NCBI RefSeq assembly: GCF_035621455.1
Contig: NZ_CP141822.1
Location: 124,001 to 188,000, forward strand
DNA: 64,000 bases
Origin: Vibrio natriegens NBRC 15636 = ATCC 14048 = DSM 759
GTDB taxonomy: Bacteria; Pseudomonadota; Gammaproteobacteria; Enterobacterales; Vibrionaceae
Direction: 5' to 3'
Shown here in pieces: positions 31,794-34,704 of this stretch (positions are counted from its first letter, which is position 1; the number at the start of each line of letters is the position of its first letter). The position numbers and the translations under genes are program-made. The notes under the pieces were generated by a model. It had not been told where the DNA came from, did no database searches, and saw only the letters and a list, made by a program, of their open reading frames with translations.

Positions 31794-33674
31794 ATGATGA
31801 AAAAAATGTCTTTGGCTTTGGCGCTTACCAGTGCCTTACTTGTTGCGCCATTTAGCTGGGCGCAATCTCTTTCCGCAACCACTCAAGATCCAATTTACCA
31901 ACTCGATGACAAACTGGTGTTAGGCCGGGTTGAAAATGTCTATTACAGCGAGATTCCAGAGCTAAGTGACGTGCCGTTCATGGGTAAGATTGATACAGGT
32001 GCCGATACCACCTCGATGCATGCCGAGAATATTCACGTCACCAGCTCGAACCCAGAGTTCTCTAACCTGAAAGATAACGAGTTACTTTGGGCGATCATCG
32101 ATGATTTGGGTGGTACAAAAGCCAAGTGGGATGATGGGACTTTCGAGCCGTATCAAGTCAAAGTGAGCTTTACCATTCAGCACCCTTACACGGGCAAACA
32201 GATCACAGTCACCGATGATCTGGAACGTATCAGTGCGATTCGCAGCCGTACCAGTACAAAACCGATATTGCGTCCAAACGTAAAAATGCCGATGACGATA
32301 GCGGGTCATACCGTTGATACCGTTGTGAACTTAACCGCACGTAAGCAGTTTTCTGCACCAATTCTGATTGGAAAAACCTATCTGAAAGATAACGCGTGGG
32401 TGTTTGCCGGATATGACTACCTGCAGCAGCAGCCCAAGGCCAAAATGATTGGTAAGCAAGAGCTTGTCTCTGTAGAAGGCGTTCCTTACAAGGTGAGTAT
32501 TTCGACCAGCAGTCGCTACACCAATGCGCATGCTCTGGACATCAAAGTAGATAAGAAGGCCAAGCAAGTGTCCTTCACCTTAGAGGGCGAAAACGGTAAG
32601 CGACACCCGATGACACTGCCGCTGATTCGTATGCTTAAAACGACGAAAGGTGAGCGACCACTGGTATATTTACCTGTGAAAGTGTCGGAAAGCGAAACTC
32701 AGCACTGGTTGGTGTATTTGCGTGATCGCAGCAATTTTAGCTCACAGCTGCGCTTAGGCAATGATGTGGTTAGCCAGCACTTTGTGGTCGATACCGATAA
32801 AGAAAACCTGCTTGGTGGTGTTGAAAAGACCTTTAAGAGTGCTCTGAAAGCCAAACCTCTGGTGATTTCTCCTGAGGAGACTCTCAATATTGATGGCTAC
32901 TCCGTACCAGCCTACCCAACGTTTACTGTCAAAACTCCGCTTCTTCGCGTGCATGGCTTTGAGCTCAGCGAAAAAGGCAAAGATGAAGTGGCGACCTATT
33001 ACTTAACCAATGAACAGGGCAAAGAGGAAAAAATCACCAAACCCGTTGTGAAAAAGCTAAGAGTGGGCGATATGGTGCGCCCCGTGGTTGAAGGGGATTT
33101 TGTGATTGGGAACACAGAGAAGAGCATCGAATTTGCCATTGATGTGTTGGAGAACGAAGAAACTCAACCGTTTTTCGTGTTTGGCCATGATATGGCAAAA
33201 GGTGGTGTGCTGCTGAATACGCGTGCGGATCACCTCTTGGATGCCAAACCGTTATTCCGGGCTGGTCATATTGAAGTGGCTGAAGTGGAAGGCATGTTGT
33301 TCCCGGTGAAACTGGATACGGGGGCTGACGTCAGCTCAATCAGCGCTACTGATATCAAGCAATTTCAGAAAGACGGCAAAGACATGGTGAGCTTCACTTA
33401 TGAAAACGATTATGGCGTGAAAAAACAGCTGACTCGTGAAGTGGTCAATGTGATGCACATTACCGCGAAGAAGGGCGAGAAAACCAACGTCAGGCCGGTG
33501 GTTAAAATGCACGTGAAACTGGGCGATCTGGAGAAGAAAATAGAGGTCAACCTTCAGGACAGAGAGCGTTTTAAGTACAGCATGATTTTGGGTAAAAACT
33601 TTTTGAAGCATGGTGTGGTGGTGTCGAGTGATACCAATTACATCGTGACGAAAAAATCGGATGTCAAAAAGTAA
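31794..33674 (+). CDS. Exported protein with four tandem retropepsin-like modules
   Basis: 626 aa with a signal peptide cut after SWAQ (about residue 24), so periplasmic or secreted. It belongs to the retropepsin-like family annotated as RimK/LysX-associated 'ATP-dependent zinc protease'. Two copies have the aspartic-protease signature DTGA: Asp67 (KIDTGADTTSMHA) and Asp508 (KLDTGADVSSISA). Each is followed about 100 residues later by a DR/RKQF-type strand and an ILIGKTYL or MILGKNFL motif. Two middle stretches (about 218-345 and 355-485) align by eye with module 4 (VSFT..., RPLV, LRDRSNF...LRLGNDVV) but lack DTGA. Start at the first of two ATGs, with AGGGATA upstream. Substrate unknown. A zinc or ATP role is a database label and is not supported here. 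Confidence 0.82.
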   Translation: MMKKMSLALALTSALLVAPFSWAQSLSATTQDPIYQLDDKLVLGRVENVYYSEIPELSDVPFMGKIDTGADTTSMHAENIHVTSSNPEFSNLKDNELLWAIIDDLGGTKAKWDDGTFEPYQVKVSFTIQHPYTGKQITVTDDLERISAIRSRTSTKPILRPNVKMPMTIAGHTVDTVVNLTARKQFSAPILIGKTYLKDNAWVFAGYDYLQQQPKAKMIGKQELVSVEGVPYKVSISTSSRYTNAHALDIKVDKKAKQVSFTLEGENGKRHPMTLPLIRMLKTTKGERPLVYLPVKVSESETQHWLVYLRDRSNFSSQLRLGNDVVSQHFVVDTDKENLLGGVEKTFKSALKAKPLVISPEETLNIDGYSVPAYPTFTVKTPLLRVHGFELSEKGKDEVATYYLTNEQGKEEKITKPVVKKLRVGDMVRPVVEGDFVIGNTEKSIEFAIDVLENEETQPFFVFGHDMAKGGVLLNTRADHLLDAKPLFRAGHIEVAEVEGMLFPVKLDTGADVSSISATDIKQFQKDGKDMVSFTYENDYGVKKQLTREVVNVMHITAKKGEKTNVRPVVKMHVKLGDLEKKIEVNLQDRERFKYSMILGKNFLKHGVVVSSDTNYIVTKKSDVKK

Positions 33675-33802: not shown

Positions 33803-34306
33803 TTGAAAACTAAGCTGATTACGCGTGAAGGCTATAACAAACTCAAACAAGAGCACGATTACCTCTGGAACGAAAAGCGACCTGAGATCACCAAGATAGT
33901 CACCTGGGCCGCCAGTCTGGGCGATCGCTCTGAAAATGCAGATTACACCTTCAATAAACGATTATTGCGTCAAATCGATCGTCGCGTTCGTTTTCTCAGA
34001 AAGTTTTTACCTGAAGTGACCATCGTGGATTACTCACCTCAGCAAGAAGGTAAGGTCTTCTTCGGAGCTTGGGTCGAGATCGAAAATGAAGCGGGTGACG
34101 TGAAGAAGTTTCGTATTGTCGGGCCGGAAGAGATCTATGGCGATGCGAAAGGCTATATCTCTATCGACTCACCCATGGCACGCGCGATGCTTAAAAAACA
34201 AGTCGATGAAGAGTTTACGGTTAGGACGCCCGATGGCGATAAAGAATGGTTCATTAACTCGATTGAGTACAACCTATCCAGCCCAGATGCGACAAACCCT
34301 AGCTAG
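33803..34306 (+). CDS. greB: Transcription elongation factor GreB
   Basis: 167 aa. Rescues backtracked RNA polymerase by stimulating transcript cleavage. N-terminal coiled coil (about 1-80) with the acidic tip GDRSENADY, and the C-terminal FKBP-like domain with IVGPEEIYG. GreB rather than GreA because of the basic NKRLLRQIDRRVRFL patch. TTG start at 33803 with a strong AAGGAG eight bases upstream. Same neighbourhood (tex, ompR-envZ) as in E. coli. Confidence 0.96.
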   Translation: MKTKLITREGYNKLKQEHDYLWNEKRPEITKIVTWAASLGDRSENADYTFNKRLLRQIDRRVRFLRKFLPEVTIVDYSPQQEGKVFFGAWVEIENEAGDVKKFRIVGPEEIYGDAKGYISIDSPMARAMLKKQVDEEFTVRTPDGDKEWFINSIEYNLSSPDATNPS

Positions 34307-34312
34307 GGTGAC

Positions 34313-34345
34313 TGGTCGGTGAGTGAATGTTCCGACCATGTTTAA
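34313..34345 (+). terminator. Possible terminator of greB
   Basis: TGGTCGG and CCGACCA form a 7-bp stem around a 12-nt loop, then TGTTTA. Weak T tract. Confidence 0.4.
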
Positions 34346-34404
34346 CCGACATCCTCTTCATCCTGAGAAGAAAAGGCATTGAGCGCTTTTATAGGAGCAC
34401 ATAA

Positions 34405-34704
34405 ATGATGAGAGCAGTGATTAGTGGCACCGTATTAACCGTAGGATGTTCATTTTCTGCGTTTTCCCAAGAAGAACTAAAAGGGTGTGATGCAAAAGAG
34501 TTTGCTGTCGAGCAGCAGCTTGAATACGCCAAAGTGCAAGGTAAAGAGCAGCATATTGAAGGGCTCGAACGTGCGTTAGCTTCGGTACAAAGTGAGTGTA
34601 TTCGAGAGGAGCAACGCCAGAAATTACATGCAGAAATTGAAAAAAGTACTCAAAAGGAAAAGTTGCAAGCCAGCAGCGAAACAGAGTGGGAACTGAGCCA
34701 GTAA
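34405..34704 (+). CDS. DUF1090 (YqjC-like) small exported protein
   Basis: 99 aa. Signal peptide MMRAVISGTVLTVGCSFSAFS, then the DUF1090 core: GCDAKEFAVEQQLEYAKVQGKEQHIEGLERAL...SEC, with the two conserved Cys, followed by a charged helical tail. E. coli YqjC is the named relative and the function is unknown. Own promoter not obvious. Starts 98 bp after greB and ends 183 bp before ompR. Confidence 0.82.
   Translation: MMRAVISGTVLTVGCSFSAFSQEELKGCDAKEFAVEQQLEYAKVQGKEQHIEGLERALASVQSECIREEQRQKLHAEIEKSTQKEKLQASSETEWELSQ

Follow-up and report, generated by a model that had tools for sequence, protein, structure and literature searches.

The protein described here, 626 residues long and encoded by Vibrio natriegens, is probably a periplasmic aspartic protease that works as a single chain and belongs with RloA and RimB (PF05618, Lpg0085-like); in it, four retropepsin-like modules (M1 to M4) would form a live pair, M1-M4, and a dead pair, M2-M3. 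Following export, the two ends of the chain, M1 and M4, would pack face to face as one two-lobed retropepsin, with D67 of M1 and D508 of M4 each contributing one Asp to the dyad in the manner of two identical RloA protomers. M2 and M3, from which Asp-Thr-Gly has been lost, would pair in turn, giving a dead and distorted version of this dimer whose two ends are connected to the live pair. They most likely keep the outer pair in position and may in addition provide a second binding groove. The motifs, the four modules, their conservation and the predicted pairing of M1 with M4 are supported by the computational analysis presented here.

The gene, its product and the export signal

In the window, i.e. 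the whole 64,000-nucleotide stretch of DNA that was analysed, the open reading frame at 31794-33674 on the forward strand encodes 626 residues, and its coordinates and strand are correct. As judged from the reading frame and its orthologs, the product is a four-module retropepsin-like protein that is predicted to be exported. Its N-terminus, about residues 1-23 (31794-31862, forward strand), resembles a signal peptide when the sequence is read by eye, and this probable signal peptide is retained in the orthologs. The protein contains no Cys, and the mature part is free of Cys in all 79 rows of the ortholog alignment.

The first-pass annotation had regarded a periplasmic location as unusual for the RimB-like family. 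This view was rejected, since three RloA proteases with signal peptides have been described in P. aeruginosa in the accessible part of PMC12239564. Besides, the host genome has three other PF05618 genes, two of which start like lipoprotein genes as read by eye. This genome comprises 5.1 Mb in two contigs and encodes four PF05618 proteins in all. An RloA-like lipoprotein gene adjoins its one RloB match (L001), a second RloA-like lipoprotein gene is present at L002, and a rimK-rimB-like pair, named by reading, lies elsewhere (L003).

Around the gene lie tex (upstream and divergent), ompR-envZ and a gene resembling greB, all again named by reading. The last of these is located on the forward strand of the window (33803-34704 region), followed by a small exported-looking open reading frame (34405-34704) that is present in 4 of the 79 named loci. 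In L008, L010, L011 and L016, which share the orientation of the window, greB lies on the opposite strand, and in L100 and L102 it lies as in the window; a local inversion is likely. Scans for promoters (1 versus a shuffle mean of 3.5) and terminators (3 versus 2.6) gave nothing above shuffled sequences. A conserved operon partner was not found: 16 of the 79 named loci, some of them with short flanks, have none of the seven window neighbours sought.

Four modules and their motifs

Module 1 (residues 38-214, 31905-32435; all features of this section lie on the forward strand) is supported by profile comparison, AlphaFold2 and Pfam and retains the DTGA motif at residues 67-70 (31992-32003), as is evident from the sequence and the ortholog alignment. 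In the structure model it also carries an insertion with a predicted helix at about residues 84-121 (32043-32156), which is confined to this module. Profile comparison and models support module 2 (residues 215-352, 32436-32849) and module 3 (residues 353-479, 32850-33230), the most diverged of the four. In M2, which has no catalytic Asp, the corresponding place is taken by S237 (32502-32504; Ser in 75, Ala in 3 and Thr in 1 of the 79 rows). In M3, which has no DTG, it is taken by T376 (32919-32921; Ser in 62, Thr in 15 and Asp in 2 of 79), and neither of the two rows with Asp has TG after it. Module 4 (residues 480-622, 33231-33659), assigned by Pfam, NCBIfam and structure, is the nearest to RloA/RloA2 and keeps DTGA at residues 508-511 (33315-33326), as seen in the sequence and the ortholog alignment. 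The two DTGA motifs that the first-pass annotation had placed at residues 67 and 508 are thus present.

Its further proposal of four retropepsin-like modules, of which only the outer two carry DTGA, is borne out by hhalign and by the structure models. When the modules were compared separately as profiles, hhalign probabilities were 99.4% for M1-M4, 98.9% for M2-M4, 97.5% for M1-M2, 97.4% for M3-M4 and 97.3% for M2-M3. The only pair without a direct link is M1-M3, whose 17.6% falls inside the range of 72 reversed or column-permuted control profiles (highest value 28.7%). Pfam family PF05618 matches the whole protein with 137.5 bits against a cut-off of 27 bits. On isolated segments, M1 (40.1 bits, in two stretches) and M4 (93.2 bits) exceed this cut-off, M2 stays below it (13.6 bits) and M3 gives no match. 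As M1 by itself yields two stretches and M3 none, the four stretches that Pfam reports along the whole protein are not the four modules, and that equation was rejected. The assignment of M3 as a module rests on profile-profile comparison and structure models. An unrelated fold of the middle stretches was rejected in view of the hhalign links, the model of the fragment and the superpositions described below. In the AlphaFold2 model, read by eye, the predicted strand order repeats four times along the chain.

A further DTGA occurs between the two conserved ones in 6 of 75 orthologs. By eye it lies at the end of module 2, off the active-site place, where the window protein has DTDK (residues 333-336, 32790-32801), and it is probably due to chance.

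Predicted structure and pairing of the modules

AlphaFold2 prediction of the mature single chain, with 79 sequences, is confident (pLDDT 91.3, pTM 0.89; model number plus 24 gives the residue of the window protein). With VIA-align, whose output names no aligned residues other than the first and the last of each superposition, the full model was superposed on the tethered HIV-1 protease dimer 1lv1 over 180 of 198 residues at 3.0 A (Z 12.3), on 3nxe over 183 of 203 residues at 3.0 A (Z 12.3) and on 4qlh over 179 of 198 residues at 2.9 A (Z 12.2). All three superpositions cover the model range 17 to 587, which begins with the first strand of M1 and reaches M4. Single HIV protomers reach a Z of at most 8.8 and cover only 94-97 residues, which is most simply read as one lobe of the two-lobed match being M1 and the other M4. 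For four of the HIV monomers listed (1met, 1meu, 1odx and 1aaq), the alignment begins in M1 (167 or 168) and ends in M4 (589); as far as end points go, this fits M1 touching M4. Pepsins also span the range from M1 to M4, at 3.8-4.3 A (1fmx: 214 of 325 residues, 3.8 A, Z 9.3, 14 to 594). Foldseek disagrees with VIA-align and aligns the full-chain model poorly with tethered dimers (rmsd about 14-16 A). We place more trust in the VIA-align fit owing to its Z and coverage. Of the two arrangements offered in the first-pass annotation, the full-chain model thereby points to the intramolecular dimer, and in the predicted fold a single active site is most likely made up by M1 and M4 of the same chain.

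A fragment of modules 2 and 3 folded alone also gives a confident model (pLDDT 92.6, pTM 0.85; model number plus 210 gives the residue of the window protein). In this model M2 has the fold of 2pma, 9g58 and 9g59 (Z 14.3-15.9) and superposes on 2pma over 124 of 129 residues at 2.0 A (Z 15.9) and on RloA2 over 128 of 141 residues at 2.4 A (Z 15.5). For M3 the agreement is weaker. Superpositions limited to this module are with retroviral proteases only (Z 6.7-7.8), the best being 92 residues of XMRV protease at 3.4 A (Z 7.8). For M2 and M3 together, the superposition on 4eq0, a tethered HIV protease, takes in 178 of 198 residues at 6.2 A with a Z of 8.1, a value near 8 being middling by VIA-align's own note, and Foldseek places this model at an rmsd of about 10-12 A from tethered dimers. 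The model of the dead pair is, at best, a related and distorted dimer-like arrangement without catalytic Asp.

Sequential pairing is the simplest outcome of a tandem duplication, and the poor two-lobe alignments of Foldseek leave the partners unsettled. Neighbouring modules could accordingly pair as M1-M2 and M3-M4, giving two one-Asp sites that bind without cutting. We consider this very improbable, because the two-lobed VIA-align superpositions listed begin in M1 and finish in M4, and the M2-M3 fragment folds confidently by itself.

Another arrangement would be RloA-like, with M4 pairing with M4 and M1 with M1 across two chains, so that two symmetric sites are formed and the inner modules serve as spacers. 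RloA and RloA2 are homodimers in the crystal and in solution with DTG at the dimer interface (accessible part of PMC12239564), RloA2 closely resembles M4 taken by itself (Z 13.6), and the AlphaFold2 model comprises one chain only. Even so, a single modelled chain, with a pTM of 0.89, is enough to match a two-lobed dimer that runs from M1 to M4, and pairing across chains is in our judgement quite unlikely; a further argument comes from the substrate residues discussed below.

Conservation and selection

For the comparison of orthologs, 153 stretches encoded a relative, of which the best 80 were retained. By record title, the resulting 79 loci stem from Vibrio (73), a Vibrionaceae MAG (1), a Vibrionales bacterium (1), Photobacterium (3) and Psychromonas (1). 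Among these loci, from which records of the own genome may have been omitted, the nearest named orthologs are 96% identical and belong to Vibrio sp. J1-1 and to a Vibrionaceae MAG. The 79-row alignment consists of the window and 78 loci; the Vibrio mytili ortholog (L045:6001-7907), which has stops and a shifted frame and represents either a broken gene or an assembly error, was left out.

Both DTGA motifs are present in all 75 uninterrupted match ranges from the 79 loci, and D67 and D508 are Asp in 79 of 79 rows, with the middle modules lacking DTG. Neither of the two outcomes that the first-pass annotation had named as speaking against its reading, an unrelated fold of the middle segments and loss of the DTGA motifs among orthologs, was seen. 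Both motifs are likewise kept in all 25 full-length sequences of a sample of the order, a set that includes the window's own sequence and may overlap in species with the 79 loci. The outer modules are the more conserved ones, with invariant columns amounting to 29 of 177 in M1 and 34 of 143 in M4, compared to 5 of 138 in M2 and 6 of 127 in M3. The dN/dS ratio lies between 0.014 and 0.16 in every module of every close pair where it could be computed (dS was saturated for all modules of the window-L039 pair and for M2 of L041-L042). Given these low ratios in every module of the close pairs, the dead modules M2 and M3 do not seem to be decaying.

Substrate residues

In the published model of RloA, the residues K46, R92, R114 and R137 contact polyglutamate, and RloA cleaves reporters with 8 or 10 glutamates and not those with 6 or fewer (accessible part of PMC12239564). 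To map these residues, we counted positions in the 9g58 sequence, which is from P. fluorescens, and took its numbering to be that of P. aeruginosa RloA. The equivalents in M1 are K65, R145, R160 and R183, kept in 79, 71, 79 and 79 of the 79 rows, respectively. In M4 three of the four RloA residues are kept, as K506, R567 and R590 (79 of 79 each). The place of R92 is occupied in M4 by Asp in 71 of 79 rows and by Asn (N552) in the window, compared to Arg in M1 in 71 of 79. Such opposite residues constitute an asymmetry that fits a hetero-pair of M1 and M4. Pairing of M4 with itself across two chains would leave a symmetric channel with an acidic residue on either side, which argues against the symmetric arrangement.

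The same residues bear on whether the whole protein is a pseudoprotease, i.e. a periplasmic scaffold or peptide-binding protein that keeps DTGA for structure alone. DTG has already been lost in two modules, the protein is not known to be active, and the bacterial PE_PGRS16, which has this fold together with DTG/DSG, showed no activity (accessible part of PMC6819658). On the other side, DTGA, the preceding Lys and the two key arginines of M1 and M4 do not vary in any of the 79 rows, in contrast to M2 and M3, where Asp and Gly are gone and the Lys is mostly gone as well: the Lys before the DTG place is gone from M2 in 79 of 79 rows and present in M3 in 8 of 79. This contrast is not a clean one, as the inner modules keep R429 in 79, R312 in 77 and R288 in 66 of 79 rows. 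On balance we regard a pseudoprotease as unlikely and expect, with good though not full confidence, that the four-module protein is proteolytically active.

Polyglutamate is a substrate lead for the four-module protein, drawn from sequence comparison, and the kept basic residues give a preference for polyglutamate or polyglutamylated proteins roughly an even chance. The dead modules retain R279, R288 and R312 (M2) as well as K421 and R429 (M3), which are candidates for a basic groove in the dead pair. It is conceivable, if rather doubtful, that a bacterial retropepsin, quadruplicated with nested pairing (1-4, 2-3), evolved separately from pepsin into an asymmetric single-chain enzyme of pepsin-like kind and that this groove acts as an exosite which catches polyglutamate or polyglutamylated envelope proteins and passes them on to the live site.

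Distribution and origin

Among 295 genomes of the order, 25 have the four-module form, taken as a full-length match. Fourteen of them are among the 21 genomes listed for the same genus (the own genome included), 9 come from one other family and 2 from another; 89 of the 295 genomes were without any match. In a sample of 369 genomes of the class, a search at E 1e-30, which may miss shorter or more distant multi-module forms, gave a full-length match in the own genome only, and the three remaining matches are confined to module 4.

A module tree was calculated from 10 of the 25 orthologs, five of eight single-module loci (without L032, L035 and L036) and the three paralogs of the own genome. Each module forms one clade across the ten orthologs (98-100% of bootstrap trees). 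Thus, a single origin of the four-module form is most likely, earlier than the splits or exchanges between these lineages; the order of the duplications is not resolved by this tree. RloB (PF14402) is present in 148 of the 295 order genomes and in 25 of the 25 that have the four-module protein. As a functional link this co-occurrence is weak, since whole clades carry both.

Comparison with known systems

Solved sequences that match the protein are 9g58 (RloA), 9g59 (RloA2) and 2pma. With RloA, RloA2 and RloA3 of Pseudomonas (9g58, 9g59) it shares PF05618, an export signal (here read by eye), a KLDTGA-type motif and basic substrate residues, and the crystal structures of RloA and RloA2 superpose on M4 with Z 13.3-13.6. 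The difference is that RloA and RloA2 consist of one module each, whereas here four modules, two of them dead, are found in one chain. Furthermore, secreted RloA has a two-Cys disulfide that is conserved in periplasmic orthologs (accessible part of PMC12239564), unlike the Cys-free protein of the window. NCBIfam scores all remain below their cut-offs (RloA2 121.9 of 250, RloA1 104.4 of 280, RloA3 101.4 of 210 and RimB 79 of 200 bits). RloA shows a genetic link with rloB and rloC in the tolerance of hypo-osmotic conditions, and rloABC of V. cholerae is under VxrB control, according to the same source. An operon with rloB and rloC is a trait of RloA itself, with no such claim for RloA2 or RloA3; in the present genome the one RloB match adjoins L001, and the window neighbours of the gene described here are other genes.

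The best structural match of both M4 (Z 14.7; 1.9-2.1 A and Z 13.3-14.7 for 2pma, RloA2 and RloA together, VIA-align) and M2 (Z 15.9) is the single-module protein Lpg0085 (2pma), a member of the SCOP Lpg0085-like family (accessible part of PMC11313796). RimB belongs to the same Pfam family, PF05618; unlike the window protein, it is cytoplasmic, has one module and acts on the ribosomal protein RpsF (accessible part of PMC12239564).

Pepsins of family A1 have one chain with two unlike lobes and one Asp each, as is predicted here (1fmx, Z 9.3), but no inserted dead pair, and the pepsin Pfam family is absent among the five families matched at E up to 10. One chain with two retropepsin- or pepsin-like halves is also found in PecA and the C-terminal domain of PE_PGRS16 (4ehc) and in the putative endopeptidase 9iy9 of B. 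fragilis, which belong to other families and have two halves, not four. M2-M3 aligns with 4ehc over 203 of 280 residues at 4.9 A (Z 7.9) and with 9iy9 over 218 of 420 residues at 6.3 A (Z 7.0). In PecA/PE_PGRS16, DTG and DSG lie in neighbouring halves (accessible part of PMC6819658), unlike in the window protein. The engineered tethered HIV-1 protease dimer resembles M1 plus M4 in its two-lobe geometry; its man-made linker is short, and its place is filled here by two dead modules with about 265 residues in total.

Novelty and meaning

A literature search covering titles and the beginnings of abstracts, with most subscription papers outside its range, found no multi-module PF05618 protein, and the accessible part of PMC12239564 names no four-module protein. 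The protein is a new architecture inside a known protease family, PF05618, namely a single-chain variant of the RloA/RimB retropepsins. This novelty is limited by the known single-chain two-lobed bacterial aspartic proteases such as PecA/PE_PGRS16 (PMC6819658, as far as accessible). The unusual part is the dead pair nested in a live pair, of which the M1-M4 half is a prediction from the models.

The relation between two-lobed pepsins and one-lobed dimeric retropepsins has been called a 'chicken and egg' situation (accessible part of PMC2761423). A family whose characterised secreted members are homodimeric includes a chain with apparently fused and diverged halves, most copies of which are still linked by sequence profile. 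It offers a testable natural case of evolution from dimer to single chain. The protein might also act alongside the Rlo enzymes of envelope stress, which have been described recently, although we hold such a role beside the Rlo envelope pathway only tentatively, at somewhat less than even chances.
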